Positions 29,385 to 36,808 of a stretch of DNA of 64,000 nucleotides are shown here, piece by piece. The translations under genes and the position numbers were made by a program. The stretch comes from Scleromatobacter humisilvae (GTDB taxonomy: Bacteria > Pseudomonadota > Gammaproteobacteria > Burkholderiales > Burkholderiaceae_C). Position 1 is the first letter of the stretch, and every line of letters begins with the position of its first letter. The notes below the pieces were generated by a model. The model ran no database searches. It was not told where the DNA came from and saw only the letters and a program-made list of their open reading frames with translations. The stretch spans positions 1-64,000 of the forward strand of contig NZ_JAJLJH010000010.1 in assembly GCF_023231945.1 (NCBI RefSeq). The letters are read 5' to 3'.

Positions 29385-30257
29385 TCAGCCGGCCAGCGGC
29401 GGCCCGAAGCGCACGTCGGGCTTGGGCGCGCGGGCGTAGAGCCCCTGCACGCGCGGGATGTTGGCCGCGATCACGCGCAGCCGGTCCGGATTGGACGGAT
29501 GATCCGACAGGAAGGCGGGCGGCGCGCCGCGGCTGGCCGCTTCCATCTTGCGCCACAGCGAGATCGCCGCCTGCGGCTGGTAGCCCGCGCGCGCCGCGAG
29601 CTCCAGGCCGATCAGGTCGGCCTCGGTCTCGTCGTCGCGGCTGTACTTGAGCGACAGCAACTGCCCGCCCATGCCAGCCACCTGGCGGCTCGCGTTGCTC
29701 CATCCGAACAGGCCCGCCAGCAGCGCGATCGTGCCCTGCGTGGCCACTTGCTTGCCGATCTGCGCGCGGCCGTGCTCGCGCAGCGCGTGGGTCATCTCGT
29801 GGCCCATCACCATCGCGACCTCGTCGTCGGACAGCTGCAGCTTGCTCAGGATGCCCCAGTAGAACGCGATCTTGCCGCCCGGCATGCAGAACGCGTTGAC
29901 CTGCGGCGAGTTGATCAGGTTGACCTCCCACTGCCAGCCGATCGCGCGCTCGTTCCACATGCCGGCGAACGGCCGCAGGCGCGTCGAGATCATCACGAGC
30001 CGGCGCAGCTGCACGTTCTCGGGCGTGGCCAGGCGATGTTCGGCGCGCGCCTGCGCCAGCATGTCGCGATAGCCACGCGCGGCCTCGGCCTCGATCTGGG
30101 CGGCCGGCACCAGCGACTCGAAGTTCGAGCGCGGGCCGACCTGCACGCCCTCGCGCTGCGCCAGGGCGGCCGTGGCGGGCAGCACCAGCAGCGCGCCGGC
30201 GGCGGCCGTCGTGAGCAGCCGGCGGCGGCCGGCGTCGATGGGGGGAGGCGTGTTCAA
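29385..30257 (-). CDS. Exported M48-family metalloprotease
   Basis: The 290-residue protein has a Tat-like signal (GRRRLLTTAAA, cleavage near ALAQ, about 1-34) and an M48 zinc-peptidase domain with HEMTH (H153, E154, H157) and the third ligand in ETEADLIG (about E212). BepA/LoiP-type periplasmic proteases with this layout degrade or help assemble outer-membrane proteins. There is no TPR region, so it is closer to LoiP. It is preceded on the same strand by an AmpG-like permease gene after 58 bases. Confidence 0.9.
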   Translation of the reverse strand: MNTPPPIDAGRRRLLTTAAAGALLVLPATAALAQREGVQVGPRSNFESLVPAAQIEAEAARGYRDMLAQARAEHRLATPENVQLRRLVMISTRLRPFAGMWNERAIGWQWEVNLINSPQVNAFCMPGGKIAFYWGILSKLQLSDDEVAMVMGHEMTHALREHGRAQIGKQVATQGTIALLAGLFGWSNASRQVAGMGGQLLSLKYSRDDETEADLIGLELAARAGYQPQAAISLWRKMEAASRGAPPAFLSDHPSNPDRLRVIAANIPRVQGLYARAPKPDVRFGPPLAG

Positions 30258-30315: not shown

Positions 30316-31893
30316 TCAGCGGCGCGCGTCCAGCGCGTCGATCGGTTTCCACAAGGCCTTGAGCCACACCAGGGACGGCACGCCCATCGCGATGGCCACC
30401 AGGAAGAACGCCGGCCAGCCGATCGCCTCGGCCAGCACGCCCGCCAGCGGGCCGATCCAGACGCGGCCGACCGACTGGAACGCCGACAGCAGCGCGAACT
30501 GCGTGGCGCTGAAGCGCTGGTTGGTCAGGCTCATGAGGAACGCGAGGAAGGCCGCGGTGCCCATGCCGCTGGCCAGGTTCTCACTGGCCACTGCCATCAG
30601 CAGGCCGCCGTCCACCAGCGTCGGATGCACCAGCTTGACGAAGCCGAAGTCGAACGCGGGGATCGTCAACCCCGGCAGCTGGCCCTTGCCGTGCACCGCG
30701 AGCCACCAGAACGCGAGGCTGCTGGACATCTGCAGCAGCCCGAACAGCAGCAGCGACCACACCAGCCGCAGCCGCAGCATGATCAGGCCGCCCAGCAGCG
30801 CGCCGAACACCGTCAGCAGCAGGCCGATCAGCTTGTTGACGACGCCGACCTCCGCCGGCCCGAACGCCATGCCCTTGAGCAGGAAGGGCGTGAGCAGCGA
30901 CAGCTGGAACGCGTCGGTCAGCTTGTAGAACACGATGAAGCCGAGAAAGCTCCAGGCGCGCGGCTGGCTGAAGTAGGACTCGAGGCCGGACAGCAGCGTC
31001 TCGAAGCGGGCACGCCGGGCCGCGAAGCCGGCCAGCGGCAGCGTCACCGCGAGCCCGAGCAGCAGCGCGAGCAGGTCGATCCACTTGGCCTGCAGCGAGC
31101 CCTTGGCCACGGCGTCGCCGAACCAGGGCGACAGCAGCCAGCCGGCGATCGCGCCGCCGAAGCGCTGCGTCAGCCAGACGCCCACGCCCACGGCCACCAG
31201 CACCGCGAGGAAGCCGACGAGGTCCTGCCGGATCGGCCCGCGCGACGCGTCGCGCACGCGCGCGGGCGGTTGCGCGAGGCGCGGCAGCGCCAACGCGGAG
31301 AAGACGGCGAGCCCGGCCATGATCGCTGCCATCAGCCGGTAGACGGCGGGCCAGGTCATGCCGATGCCGTCGACGCTGTCCGTCCAGATCAGGGCGACGC
31401 CGCCGGACAGGATCATCGCGAGGCGATAGCCCATCACCGCCAGCGACGCGCCGATGCCGCGCTCGCGCGCGGGCAGCAGGTCGACGCGGTAAGCATCGAC
31501 GACGATGTCCTGCGACGCGCTGACGAACGCTACGCCCACGCCGAGTGCGGCGAACAGCGGCAGCGCGACTTTCGGCGAGATGTCGGCCAGCACGAACAGC
31601 GCGAGCGCCAGCAGCGCCTGCGTGAAGACGATCCAGCCGCGCCGGCGTCCGAGCAGCGGCAGGTCGACGCGATCCATCAGCGGCGCCCACAGGAACTTGA
31701 ACGTGTACGGGATGCCGATCAGCGTGAGGAAGCCGATCGCCGCGAAGTCGAGCCCGTCCATCGTGAGCCAGGCCTGCATCGCCAGGCCGGTCAGCGCGAG
31801 CGGCAGGCCGGAGGCGAAGCCGAGCACGAGGACGGCAAAGGCGCGGTGGAGCGCGGCCAGCGGGCTCGCGCCGGTCGGTTCGGGGGCGGTCAT
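30316..31893 (-). CDS. AmpG-like muropeptide permease (major facilitator)
   Basis: The 525-residue protein has about 14 membrane segments. It has the AmpG-type start (VLVLGFASGLPLALTG), FLWAPLMDR and FVSASQDIVVDAYRVD, typical of permeases that import anhydro-muropeptides for cell-wall recycling. No beta-lactamase gene is near. The gene lies 42 bases downstream of a secreted TPR-protein gene and upstream of an M48 protease gene, all on the minus strand, so envelope maintenance is a plausible shared theme. Confidence 0.85.
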   Translation of the reverse strand: MTAPEPTGASPLAALHRAFAVLVLGFASGLPLALTGLAMQAWLTMDGLDFAAIGFLTLIGIPYTFKFLWAPLMDRVDLPLLGRRRGWIVFTQALLALALFVLADISPKVALPLFAALGVGVAFVSASQDIVVDAYRVDLLPARERGIGASLAVMGYRLAMILSGGVALIWTDSVDGIGMTWPAVYRLMAAIMAGLAVFSALALPRLAQPPARVRDASRGPIRQDLVGFLAVLVAVGVGVWLTQRFGGAIAGWLLSPWFGDAVAKGSLQAKWIDLLALLLGLAVTLPLAGFAARRARFETLLSGLESYFSQPRAWSFLGFIVFYKLTDAFQLSLLTPFLLKGMAFGPAEVGVVNKLIGLLLTVFGALLGGLIMLRLRLVWSLLLFGLLQMSSSLAFWWLAVHGKGQLPGLTIPAFDFGFVKLVHPTLVDGGLLMAVASENLASGMGTAAFLAFLMSLTNQRFSATQFALLSAFQSVGRVWIGPLAGVLAEAIGWPAFFLVAIAMGVPSLVWLKALWKPIDALDARR

Positions 31894-31935
31894 CGGGCTA
31901 TTGTCGTCGGAGCGGTCCGCAGGTCGCGGCGACGT

Positions 31936-33393
31936 TCAATGCGCCGCCACCTTGGCGGCGAGCTGGCGCTGCTCCACGTCGACGGCGTCGGCTTCGTCGT
32001 ACGTCGCCGGGCAGACGGCGGCCGCCTCCTCGAGCAGGTGGCCCGCGGCCCCGTCCTGGCCGCGGGCCAGGCGCAGTTCCGCGCTGTAGTAGTCCGCTTC
32101 GCATCGCTGGCCCTTGCGCAGCCGGTCGGTCGGCGCGGCGTCCGCTTCGGCCAGCGCAGCCTCGAGCGTCGATTGGCCCTGCATGAGCGTGACCAGCGTG
32201 TCGACCCACGCATGCGGTGCGTGCGCCGGCACGAGCCGGGCGAGCTCGGCGCCCGCGGCTGCCTCATCCGCCGGACGCGCCCGCATTCGCACGACGAACA
32301 GCCGGAGCGAGGCGTAGGGGCTGGCGCCCGGCTCGACGGCTCGCTCGCGATAGGCGTCGACCAGTTGCGCGAACGGGCCGTCGTCCCGCTGCAGGCGCGC
32401 GAGCCTGACTGCTATCAGAAAGTCGGGGTCGATGGCCAGCGCGCGCTTGTACTCGCTGATGGCACCGGCGATGTCGTGCTTGTGCTCGAGGACGTCGGCG
32501 AGCGTGCTGTGCCCGTCGGCGATGCTGGCTTTCGAGACGCTGGTCTCGATGGCCCGGTTCGCGTCGGCGAAGGCCTGGTCCAGTTGGCCCAGCGACACTT
32601 CCGCGCCCGCTCGCCAGTTCCATCCGGCCGAATAGTCCGGCGCCAAGCGCACCACGGCATCGAACTGCGCCCGCGCACGCTCGAACTCGTGTACCTCGAT
32701 CAGCATCTGGCCGTATTGCAGATGCGTGGGCACGTCGTCCGGCGCGAACTGCAGCGCGCGGTCGAAGTCCTTCTCCGCGCGGTCGTACTGGCGCTGCTCC
32801 TGGTAGATCGTCGCTCGCCGGAAATAGCCGATGCCCTGCGTGGGATCGAGTTGCAATGCGCGGTCCAGATCGGCCAGCGCGGCCGCCACCTGACCGTGAT
32901 CGGCGTGGTATCGCGCCCAGCCACGATCGAACAAGGCGTCGGAGTCCGTGGGGTCGATGTCGAGCGCCTCGCTGGCCGCAACGATCGCCTCGGCCGGCCG
33001 CCGCACCTGGATCAGCGCCCCGGCACGAATGACCAGCGCGATCTCGCGCAATCGGCGATCGAACGTGGAATCGGCGAGCAAAGGTTCGCTGTCCGCGAGC
33101 ATCGCGGGAAAGTCCGCCAGCTGATCGTCCGCCTGCAGGCGCAGGAAGCGCGCGCCGATGGCCGTGGGATGCCCTGCCAGGATGACATCCAGGCGCCGGC
33201 GCTTTTCGTCCAGCGACTGGCCGTTGAAATCCTTCAGTTCCTCCGCGCTCATGCCGGTGTCCCCCAAGGGCACCCGATCGTCCGCAGGATCCGGCTGCCC
33301 GGCCTGCAGGTCGGCGGCCCCAGACGGGCCGCTCGCGGCCAGCACCGCGGCCAGCAGCCAGGCTCCCCAAGCCGAAGTGCGGCGAGTTCTCAT
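31936..33393 (-). CDS. Secreted TPR-repeat protein, copy A (485 residues)
   Basis: This 485-residue protein has a signal peptide (about 1-27) and a solenoid of TPR repeats (about 100-330, e.g. ALADLDRALQLDPTQGIGYF). The C-terminal part holds two cysteines shared with copy B (GQRCEADYY and AVCPATY), probably a disulfide in the periplasm. Copy B at 34379-35836 has exactly the same length and clear similarity throughout (e.g. RFLRLQADD, LADFP.MLADSE). A slipin gene sits between them. The 35 bases from the start codon upstream are nearly identical to those of copy B. Function unknown; a scaffold or chaperone for envelope proteins is a guess. Confidence 0.8.
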   Translation of the reverse strand: MRTRRTSAWGAWLLAAVLAASGPSGAADLQAGQPDPADDRVPLGDTGMSAEELKDFNGQSLDEKRRRLDVILAGHPTAIGARFLRLQADDQLADFPAMLADSEPLLADSTFDRRLREIALVIRAGALIQVRRPAEAIVAASEALDIDPTDSDALFDRGWARYHADHGQVAAALADLDRALQLDPTQGIGYFRRATIYQEQRQYDRAEKDFDRALQFAPDDVPTHLQYGQMLIEVHEFERARAQFDAVVRLAPDYSAGWNWRAGAEVSLGQLDQAFADANRAIETSVSKASIADGHSTLADVLEHKHDIAGAISEYKRALAIDPDFLIAVRLARLQRDDGPFAQLVDAYRERAVEPGASPYASLRLFVVRMRARPADEAAAGAELARLVPAHAPHAWVDTLVTLMQGQSTLEAALAEADAAPTDRLRKGQRCEADYYSAELRLARGQDGAAGHLLEEAAAVCPATYDEADAVDVEQRQLAAKVAAH

Positions 33394-33425
33394 GATGTCC
33401 TCCCGAGACGGATCGTCGTCCGACC
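33391..33425 (-). promoter_or_regulatory. Conserved leader of TPR copy A
   Basis: The 35 bases from the start codon upstream (on the minus strand, including a GGGAGGAC ribosome site) match those of TPR copy B (35834-35868) with only two differences. This is more conserved than the proteins themselves. It is likely a shared 5' leader, possibly a translational control site. Confidence 0.5.
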
Positions 33426-33528
33426 AGGCATTGTCGTCGTCGCGATCGCCGCACGTTCCTTATGCGTTTCATACGCGACCGCGCCAACACTGGAGGCCAA
33501 CCAACCGCAAAGAAATCGAGGTTCGACC

Positions 33529-34308
33529 ATGTTTCCCGTCATCGCTCTCATCCTGGTCGCGCTGCTGTCCGGCCTGCGCATCGCGCAGGAGTACCAGCGC
33601 GGCGTCATCCTGCGCCTCGGCCGCTACGTCGGCCTGCGCGGGCCCGGCCTGTACTGGATCATTCCCTTCGGCATCGAGCGCGCGACGACGATCGACGTCC
33701 GCACGCTGACCGTCTCGGCCGAGCAGCAGGAGACCATCACGCGCGACAGCGTCACGATCAAGGTCAACGCCGTGCTGTGGTACCGCATCGTCGACGCGGC
33801 GCGCTCGGTGATCGAGGTCGCGGACGCGCACGCCGCCGTCTACCAGCTCGCGCTGACCGGCCTGCGCAACATCATCGGCCAGCACGACCTCGACGAAGTG
33901 CTGCAGCAGCGCGACAAGATCAACGAGTTGCTTCGCGACAGCATCGCCGCCTCCACCGAAGTCTGGGGACTCGAGGTCCAGCGCTTCGAGATGAAGGACG
34001 TCGAGCTCCCCGCCGCGATGCAGCAGGTGATGGCGATGCAGGCCGAGGCGATCCGCGAGAAGCGCGCGCGCCTGATCAAGGCGGAAGCCGAGTCCGAGGC
34101 ATCGATCAAGCTGTCCGCGGCCGCCGCGCAGATGATGCAGAACCCGGCGGCGCTGGAGCTGCGGCGCATGCAGATGATCTCCGAGGTCGGTGCGGAGAAC
34201 AACAGCACCACCGTGCTGATGATTCCGTCGGACTTCGTGTCGCTGGCGCAGACGTTGAACCAGGTGCTCGGCCAGCAGGGGCGGGGCTCGACGTCGGCTG
34301 CAGCCTGA
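33529..34308 (+). CDS. Slipin (SPFH/band-7 stomatin-like membrane protein)
   Basis: The 259-residue protein has an N-terminal membrane segment (about 1-18), an SPFH domain (about 19-180, with EYQRGVILRLGRYVG and GPGLYWIIPF) and a coiled C-terminal part (about 185-240). Slipins form oligomeric rings in membrane microdomains and usually regulate membrane proteases, often with an NfeD partner encoded next door. No NfeD gene is here. I start it at 33529; the open frame runs back thousands of bases without similarity. It lies between the two secreted TPR paralogues, divergent from copy A and convergent with copy B. Confidence 0.93.
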   Translation: MFPVIALILVALLSGLRIAQEYQRGVILRLGRYVGLRGPGLYWIIPFGIERATTIDVRTLTVSAEQQETITRDSVTIKVNAVLWYRIVDAARSVIEVADAHAAVYQLALTGLRNIIGQHDLDEVLQQRDKINELLRDSIAASTEVWGLEVQRFEMKDVELPAAMQQVMAMQAEAIREKRARLIKAEAESEASIKLSAAAAQMMQNPAALELRRMQMISEVGAENNSTTVLMIPSDFVSLAQTLNQVLGQQGRGSTSAAA

Positions 34309-34378
34309 TCGCCAGCCCGATCGGACGGTGAATCGTCGCGGCGTCCTGCGCGCGATCAGCCGGCCGAGTCTCGTGCGC

Positions 34379-35836
34379 TCAGTGCGACGGCGACTGCGCG
34401 GCGAGCCGCTGCCGCTCCGCGGCCACTGCCTGAGCCTCGATGTACGTCGAAGGGCAGACCGAGTGCGCCTCCTCGAGCAGGCCGCTCGCCGCCTCGCGCT
34501 GCCCGTGCAACAGCAGTCGTTCCGCGGCGAAGTAGTCGGCCTCGCATCGGTGCCCTGCCCGCAGGCGGTCCGTGTCCGCCGCATCGGCCTCGACCAGCGT
34601 CGCGGCCAGCGTGGTTCGTCCCAGCACCAGGTCGACCAACGTGTCACCCCACTCGTGCGGCTGATGCGGCGTGGCCAGCGATGCGAGTTCGGCGGTCGCC
34701 GCGGCTTCGGCGGCGGGATCGACATGCACTTGCAGGATGAACAGATAGAGCAGCGTGTACGGATTGGAATCCGGCCACGTCACCTGCCCGCGGAATGTCT
34801 GGATGGCTTGCGGCAGTTGGCCGGAAAACCATTGCATTTGTCCCACGCTTTTTGCGATCCTGTGATCGTCGGTGAACGCCAGCACGCTCTGGAATTCGCG
34901 GGCTGCACCGGCGAAGTCCGACTTCTTCCATAGTGCCGTCGCCAGGTACGAGTGCGCGTTGGCCAGGTCGCTGTCGGTGCCGCCCAACGCCATGGCCTCG
35001 CGGGCGTCGGCCACCACGTCGTCGAAGCGCTTGAGCACGAGGTGCGCGTGCTCGCGCCCGACCCACGCTGACGGATCGCCCGGCCGCAGGCGCAGGGCGA
35101 CCTCGAACTGGGCCAGCGCGGCCTCGGGGGCACCGCGCTCGATCAACAGCACGCCATATTCCCGCCGTGCGGGCTCGTCCTCCGGCACGAGTTGCACGGC
35201 CCGCTCGTAGTCCTGGGCGGCGCGATCCAGGGCGCCGCGCGACGCCAGAACGACCGCGCGCCGGTAGCGTCCGACGCCCTCGTCGGGCTCGAGCTGCAAC
35301 GCGCGGTCCAGGTCCGCGAGGGCGTCGTCCGTCCGGTCTTGATCCACCTGGTAGCGCGCCCAGCCGCGCGCGAACCAGGCATTCGAATCCGTTGGGACGA
35401 TCTCGATCGCCTGGCTGGCCAGCGGGATCGCCTCAGCCGCTCGCTGCGCCTGGATCAAGGCCTCGGCACGCGTGACCAGCACGATCTTGCGCAGCCGACG
35501 GTCGATCGCGGAATCCGCCAGGACAAGCTCGCTGTCCGCGAGCATGCCCGGAAAATCCGCCAAAGCGTCGTCCGCCTGCAAGCGCAGAAAGCGCACGCCG
35601 GTGGCCTGGGGCCGCAGCGCCAGGATGGCGTCGGCGCGTCGGCGGCGTTCGGCGGGAGGCTGGCGCTGGAACTCGTCGAGTTCGTCCGGCCGCATGCCGG
35701 TGTCGTCCAGGACCACGACATCGGCGCGCAGAGCCGGCACCCCGGCCTGCAGGTCGACGGCCCACGACGATCCGCTCGCGGCCAGCAGCGCCACCAGCAG
35801 CCAGGCTCTCCAGGCCCATGCGTGGCGAGTCTTCAT
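34379..35836 (-). CDS. Secreted TPR-repeat protein, copy B (485 residues)
   Basis: Paralogue of the protein at 31936-33393 with the same length. It has a signal peptide (about 1-27), N-terminal DDTGMRPDELDEF motif region, TPR solenoid (about 100-330, e.g. ALADLDRALQLEPDEGVGRY) and two conserved C-terminal cysteines (GHRCEADYF, SVCPSTY). By eye it keeps roughly half its residues relative to copy A, so the duplication is old or divergence fast. I choose the ATG at 35836 by alignment with copy A. The stop lies 70 bases from the end of the convergent slipin gene. Function unknown. Confidence 0.8.
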   Translation of the reverse strand: MKTRHAWAWRAWLLVALLAASGSSWAVDLQAGVPALRADVVVLDDTGMRPDELDEFQRQPPAERRRRADAILALRPQATGVRFLRLQADDALADFPGMLADSELVLADSAIDRRLRKIVLVTRAEALIQAQRAAEAIPLASQAIEIVPTDSNAWFARGWARYQVDQDRTDDALADLDRALQLEPDEGVGRYRRAVVLASRGALDRAAQDYERAVQLVPEDEPARREYGVLLIERGAPEAALAQFEVALRLRPGDPSAWVGREHAHLVLKRFDDVVADAREAMALGGTDSDLANAHSYLATALWKKSDFAGAAREFQSVLAFTDDHRIAKSVGQMQWFSGQLPQAIQTFRGQVTWPDSNPYTLLYLFILQVHVDPAAEAAATAELASLATPHQPHEWGDTLVDLVLGRTTLAATLVEADAADTDRLRAGHRCEADYFAAERLLLHGQREAASGLLEEAHSVCPSTYIEAQAVAAERQRLAAQSPSH

Positions 35837-35868
35837 GATGTCCTCCCGAGGCGGATCGTCGTCCGCCC
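35834..35868 (-). promoter_or_regulatory. Conserved leader of TPR copy B
   Basis: Counterpart of the element at 33391-33425, with the same ribosome site and spacing to the start codon and two mismatches in 35 bases. The similarity fades beyond 35868, toward the promoter. Confidence 0.5.
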
Positions 35869-36022
35869 GATTGTTGTCAGCGCCATGCGCGCGACGGCCA
35901 TGTTGCCAGACGCGCGCGTCGCCGCAAGGCGCTGCGCCGGCGCGCGCCACCGGGAAAGCCGCCTGTGCGCGCCGCGCGACCGCTGCTAGCCTGATCGACC
36001 ATGCGGCGCATCCGCCGCAAGG

Positions 36023-36412
36023 ATGGCCGCCATGCTCAAGTCGATCCTCGTCGTCGTCGGCAGCTACATGCTGTCGATCGTCCTCGTGTTGTGCAGCGAT
36101 CCGCTGCTGTCGGCGCTCTTCCCCGGCGACTTCGTGCACGGCCGGGTGCCGTCGCAGACAGCGCTCCTGGCCAGCACGGCGCTGTTCATCGCCATCTCGA
36201 TCCTGTGCGCCTGGCTCTGCGCCCGCTTCGCGCCCGCGCCAAAGTCCCGCCATGTGCTGGCGTTCATGATCCTGGGCGAGCTCCTGGGCATCGCCTCGAC
36301 GATCCCGAACTGGAACACCGGCTGGCCGCACTGGTACTGGTTGTCGTGGCTCCTGTCGTGGCCGCTGAGCTGCTTCGTGGGGCTCAGGATCGAGCAGCGT
36401 CGAGGTCGCTGA
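36023..36412 (+). CDS. Hypothetical four-helix membrane protein
   Basis: The 129-residue protein has about four membrane segments (about 8-28, 46-66, 78-95, 105-124) and no motif I recognise. Start codons at 36023 and 36032 (MLKSILVVVGSYML) are both possible. It is divergent from TPR copy B, with about 186 bases between them. The three tryptophans in TGWPHWYWLSWLL are notable but not diagnostic. Confidence 0.55.
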   Translation: MAAMLKSILVVVGSYMLSIVLVLCSDPLLSALFPGDFVHGRVPSQTALLASTALFIAISILCAWLCARFAPAPKSRHVLAFMILGELLGIASTIPNWNTGWPHWYWLSWLLSWPLSCFVGLRIEQRRGR

Positions 36413-36514: not shown

Positions 36515-36808
36515 ATGAGGCCTAACGCGTCGAACAATACTGCGGCAGTCACAGGCATCGGCGCGACGACAGCCGGCTACCTGCTTGGCCCGCTTGCCGA
36601 CCGACACGACGCGTCCGGCAGCGTTTGCCTCTGCGTCCTGGTGCTGATGATCGCGGTGCCCGCCTACTACTTCGTATTCGGCGTCAAGAAGGAGGACATG
36701 GAGGGAAACTGGATGTTCGAGCCGTCGCTGATCAAGCGCATTGCCTTGTTCCTTGCAGGAGCCATCGCAATGGCGTTCGTGCTCTCGCTCGCGCACCTGC
36801 TTCCATGA
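36515..36808 (+). CDS. Hypothetical small membrane protein
   Basis: The 97-residue protein has two or three membrane segments (about 13-27, 38-55 and 74-95) separated by a charged loop (GVKKEDMEGNW). No family recognised. It follows another small membrane protein gene on the same strand by 102 bases and is followed by a hairpin repeat. Its reality rests on length, start context and hydrophobic pattern only. Confidence 0.45.
   Translation: MRPNASNNTAAVTGIGATTAGYLLGPLADRHDASGSVCLCVLVLMIAVPAYYFVFGVKKEDMEGNWMFEPSLIKRIALFLAGAIAMAFVLSLAHLLP

Follow-up and report, generated by a model that had tools for sequence, protein, structure and literature searches.

A pair of predicted periplasmic TPR paralogues with a conserved leader, and a likely bystander slipin, beside AmpG in Scleromatobacter humisilvae

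Two genes for tetratricopeptide (TPR) proteins, TPR1 and TPR2, lie on either side of a slipin gene in the 64,000-nucleotide stretch of DNA analyzed here (the window). The explanation we favor, and hold to be reasonably probable, is that the two genes are paralogues whose shared leader has been kept as a constrained ribosome-binding 5'UTR, that the slipin is a separate gene and that the TPR proteins are exported scaffolds. The feature looks like a plain duplication of genes and not like a new envelope system. Features are listed in Table 1.

Table 1. Genes and putative expression elements around the TPR pair (positions in the window)
Feature	Position	Strand	Description
M48 metallopeptidase	29385..30257	-	AmpG neighbour here and in G002
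AmpG-family muropeptide transporter	30316..31893	-	42 bases downstream of TPR1
GACGACAAT, putative -10-like element of AmpG	31900..31908	-	ends six bases before start codon; leaderless arrangement inferred
TPR1	31936..33393	-	485 aa; signal-peptide-like N-terminus, TPR core, C-terminal segment with C431 and C461
TPR1 leader	33394..33425	-	putative 5'UTR with Shine-Dalgarno GGGAGGA
GACGACAAT, putative -10-like element of TPR1	33430..33438	-	inferred
Slipin (SPFH/Band_7)	33529..34308	+	259 aa; Band_7 PF01145 E 9.8e-37; without NfeD partner
TPR2	34379..35836	-	485 aa; TPR1 paralogue
TPR2 leader	35837..35868	-	conserved counterpart of TPR1 leader
GACAACAAT, putative -10-like element of TPR2	35870..35878	-	inferred

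The lengths and positions that the original prediction had given for the two TPR reading frames were verified, as were their common domain plan and their two C-terminal cysteines. The 485 columns of the protein alignment contain no gap, C431 and C461 are common to both proteins, and the two are diverged, as had been described (51% identity between the proteins, 66% nucleotide identity between the coding sequences). TPR_2 Pfam scores of 93.9 and 66.5 bits, above the cut-off of 27, identify both as TPR proteins, and neither has a lipobox cysteine within its first 30 residues. A full-length TPR profile matched the own genome alone in each of three overlapping genome sets, that is, 1 of 60 genomes at E <= 1e-30 and 1 of 299 and 1 of 369 at E <= 1e-25, with up to 26, 5 and 4 candidates scored per genome. 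Two contig pattern scans for close relatives gave 224 and 138 pattern matches, none of which was confirmed by tblastn; these scans exclude close relatives only, since short motifs had to be matched exactly and the own genome of the window was possibly left out. The pair most likely represents lineage-restricted, fast-evolving periplasmic TPR scaffolds.

The slipin between the TPR genes had been described as lacking an NfeD partner, and this proved correct: the single NfeD match of the genome lies outside the window, at C1:113198, where it adjoins a second slipin (C1:112449-113150). By eye, the window slipin has a hydrophobic N-terminus, which is followed by the SPFH/Band_7 domain, as in slipins generally. 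It is thus a Band_7 protein like the slipin of slipin/NfeD pairs, yet has no adjacent NfeD, in contrast to the other slipin of the same genome. The arrangement had been suggested to be an envelope module. On this reading, a membrane slipin ring would work together with the two TPR proteins as periplasmic scaffolds. Such a module would be in keeping with the physical adjacency of the three genes in this one genome and with the missing NfeD partner, but the slipin is on the plus strand, which makes it divergent with respect to TPR1 and convergent with respect to TPR2, and it therefore shares no operon with them. Nor did the TPR-slipin-TPR order recur in the relatives compared, which we take as the refuting outcome that had been foreseen for the module. 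Slipin matches at E <= 1e-62 were obtained in 3 of 399 family genomes, namely the own genome, G002 and G412. The G002 slipin, 88% identical to that of the window, is kept together with AmpG and the M48 peptidase in a genome from which profile searches did not retrieve the TPR pair, and the G412 slipin (57% identical) has no TPR neighbour by eye among ORFs of at least 150 aa, with only 1.9 kb of contig on one side. G003 has neither a match to the TPR pair nor a slipin match at E <= 1e-62. We consider the module very unlikely and the slipin most likely an independent neighbour. In the open literature, slipin, tetratricopeptide, bacteria and operon came up together in what is, by its title, an annotation study of another organism.

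Comparison within the genus suggests, from gene order, a variable gene spot next to AmpG-slipin. On the minus strand of the window the order is TPR2, TPR1, AmpG and M48 peptidase, with the slipin opposite between the TPR genes. In G002 (same genus, 93% complete) the locus is otherwise syntenic but lacks both TPR genes: the order is M48-AmpG-slipin, and the gap between AmpG and slipin is about 121 bases versus 1635 in the window. The AmpG gene of G003 (same genus, 100% complete) has different neighbours, whose products look by eye like secreted TonB-C-like and DUF4034-like proteins. The G001 contig ends inside AmpG, which makes the locus there uninformative. Beyond the G002 slipin, in the place of TPR2, lies a MORN-repeat ORF (L039:9291-11384, 697 aa, PF02493 E 8.2e-40). 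Two small predicted proteins upstream of TPR2 in the window (36023-36412 and 36515-36808) had no family match over the cut-off.

Of 36 leader positions, 34 are identical between TPR1 and TPR2. Within the leader, the best window of 35 bases has 33 matches, in agreement with the two differences originally reported, and the claim that the leader is more conserved than the protein also stands, though narrowly, since 35-base windows of the coding sequences reach a maximum of 32 matches (mean 23). The leader ranks first in similarity, with the signal-peptide region close behind (33 of 36 at +28). It seems more conserved than the protein probably because the translation-initiation region is constrained while the proteins evolve fast. 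Its most plausible reading is a short 5'UTR that carries a strong Shine-Dalgarno sequence and putatively lies beneath a -10-like GAC(G/A)ACAAT. If the shared leader were instead a cis-regulatory RNA or operator with special translational control, its rank as the most similar stretch of the pair and the inverted repeat listed in the TPR2 leader would find an explanation. However, folding of the leader RNA was no better than that of shuffles (z 1.41 and -0.92), both leader differences hit one stem pair and by eye break the stem in TPR1, and a search of the 6.27 Mb genome with up to three mismatches allowed, which could have found the leader elsewhere, returned no further copy. We regard such an element as quite improbable, and a leader hairpin was rejected because of the folding result. 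Of the shared control that had been proposed for the two genes, the part concerning expression is plausible, given the common -10-like box and Shine-Dalgarno leader, whereas a structured translational element finds no support in the folding scores.

A recent local conversion had been offered as another cause of the conserved leader. The dS (NG86) between TPR1 and TPR2 is 0.68, which tops the values between the own genome and G002 for AmpG (0.25), M48 peptidase (0.24) and slipin (0.46), and that between the own genome and G003 for AmpG (0.31). By this measure the TPR pair would be older than the species split, and since the paralogue dS exceeds the between-species dS, the genes may have duplicated before the genus arose and been lost elsewhere. 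The pair also appears fast-evolving and of slightly different composition, with a dN/dS of 0.58 versus 0.20-0.23 for AmpG, slipin and M48 peptidase (own genome versus G002) and a GC3 of 0.85-0.86 versus 0.95-0.96 in the comparison genes. Both TPR genes probably come from local duplication; going by this GC3 difference, an alternative origin is that TPR1 and TPR2 may have arrived together. If gene conversion had homogenized the 5' ends of the two genes, synonymous differences should be fewer there, and pS is indeed 0.31 in the first 90 codons versus 0.48 (p 0.008, uncorrected), with p about 0.02 for the first 29, 45 and 62 codons (nested windows, uncorrected) and p 0.058 for codons 1-187 versus 188-373. 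Yet a lower 5' synonymous divergence is also present in two ordinary orthologue pairs, which makes conversion unneeded: over 90 codons it is 0.15 versus 0.23 in AmpG and 0.28 versus 0.38 in slipin, and in either gene the first 29 codons show a slight dip. The pS of the TPR pair in its first 29 codons, 0.25, argues against a recent tract there, and the ungapped similarity of the pair ends at the leader with no extension upstream. We consider conversion unlikely.

GAC(G/A)ACAAT sits immediately above the TPR leader. It has three copies in the window, solely before AmpG, TPR1 and TPR2, where 0.41 would be expected, and 17 copies genome-wide versus 4 for the reversed control. Eight of these 17 copies are not followed by an ORF start in the next 70 bases, and this speaks against the box having a general role. 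A longer form, GACGACAATNNCNNG, chosen after inspection of the sequence, occurs twice in the genome, once at AmpG and once at TPR1, and its control has one copy. A scan against the sigma-70 consensus gave no promoter in the region, so that the -10 role of the box is one that we infer; read in this way, the TPR leader would be a 5'UTR of 26-30 bases carrying the Shine-Dalgarno motif. In the three genus members with the AmpG start covered, including G002 and G003, GACGACAAT lies six bases before the AmpG ATG. Among five non-genus relatives inspected, CTAGAAT is found 6-7 bases before this ATG in four (G020, G014, G010 and G031) and is absent in G024. With a -10-like box so close to the start codon, at a similar position in most relatives inspected, AmpG is possibly on a leaderless mRNA. 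GACGACAAT was also observed in two other loci of the own genome, L070 and L072, at 7 and 6 bases before ORF starts, and these sites could represent a recurrent leaderless promoter form.

Relative to G002, the box element flanks TPR1 on both sides, as if it had been copied upon entry of TPR1. A more specific proposal can be built on this, in which the boxes of AmpG, TPR1 and TPR2 would define one regulon. TPR1 would then have gone in between two copies of the promoter element of AmpG, and the two TPR proteins would be periplasmic adaptors specific to the lineage and expressed along with muropeptide recycling. We think this improbable as a whole, at about the same level as conversion.

The TPR1 and TPR2 proteins are most likely periplasmic TPR binding scaffolds, a putative role assigned from their predicted features. 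Among known systems, NlpI, a lipoprotein TPR adaptor of peptidoglycan hydrolases, is likewise a TPR protein of the exported kind, and residues 288-459 of TPR2 align to positions 95-265 of the NlpI model. In contrast to NlpI, TPR1 and TPR2 are without a lipobox cysteine and are longer, and their scores of 44.6 and 62.7 bits are below the NF008391 (NCBIfam) cut-off of 250. LbcA, the TPR lipoprotein partner of the CtpA protease in Pseudomonas aeruginosa, is also an envelope TPR protein, likened here by its description and as an analogy only; TPR1 and TPR2 differ from it in the missing lipobox, and no CtpA-type protease was among the scanned neighbours. By analogy with the available descriptions of these two proteins, TPR1 and TPR2 may act as adaptors of the NlpI/LbcA type. 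A defence role was rejected, as PADLOC returned one weak 18.7-bit match to TPR1 and none to the other two proteins scanned.

An AlphaFold2 TPR model from a two-sequence alignment had a mean pLDDT of 73. In blocks of ten residues, pLDDT was at least 85 for residues 171-320 and 56-87 for residues 321-485. The 50 PDB fold matches listed were generic TPR superhelices with Z up to 23, which barely covered the C-terminal region; NlpI was absent among them, an absence that carries no weight against an NlpI fold. In a sequence search of the PDB with the C-terminal profile the best match was a ribosomal protein (E 0.019). The same profile matched 12 of 399 family genomes including the own, mostly weakly. 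TPR proteins of the family genomes have a related C-terminal segment around CE...Y and differ from the pair in their N-terminal regions; several of them carry regions that, going by names read by eye, we take to be DUF3857/transglutaminase-like. Eleven of the 12 related C-termini listed were read, the twelfth (with an inner stop) being left out: both cysteines were found in three, and the second cysteine is missing by eye in eight. The 'invariant' cysteines of the C-terminal alignment are partly an artefact, since the three sequences aligned were picked for carrying both. A disulfide between C431 and C461 is possible. Another long protein of the own genome, L055 (G000:C12:90095-90424), has a related C-terminal segment with both cysteines.

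In the sequence of events that we favor, TPR1 and TPR2 would have arisen as paralogues, probably by local duplication, each copy carrying its own short 5'UTR with a strong Shine-Dalgarno sequence below a -10-like box. The leader would have been retained since copying as a constrained translation-initiation region while the proteins diverged fast. Both proteins, judging from the N-terminal segment, would be exported to the periplasm, where the TPR superhelix would end in a C-terminal helical segment whose two cysteines are possibly disulfide-linked, and would most likely, by analogy with NlpI and LbcA, bind proteins or peptides of the periplasm as scaffolds without enzymatic activity. The slipin would be a separate gene that sits by chance in this variable spot upstream of AmpG.

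Plain duplication together with a constrained ribosome-binding leader can yield adjacent genes with a conserved leader, and the locus points to a spot beside AmpG where gene content varies inside a single genus. Should the shared promoter box prove real, the locus would allow a modest test of the way in which the promoter of a gene for cell-wall recycling can take over accessory scaffolds of the periplasm.
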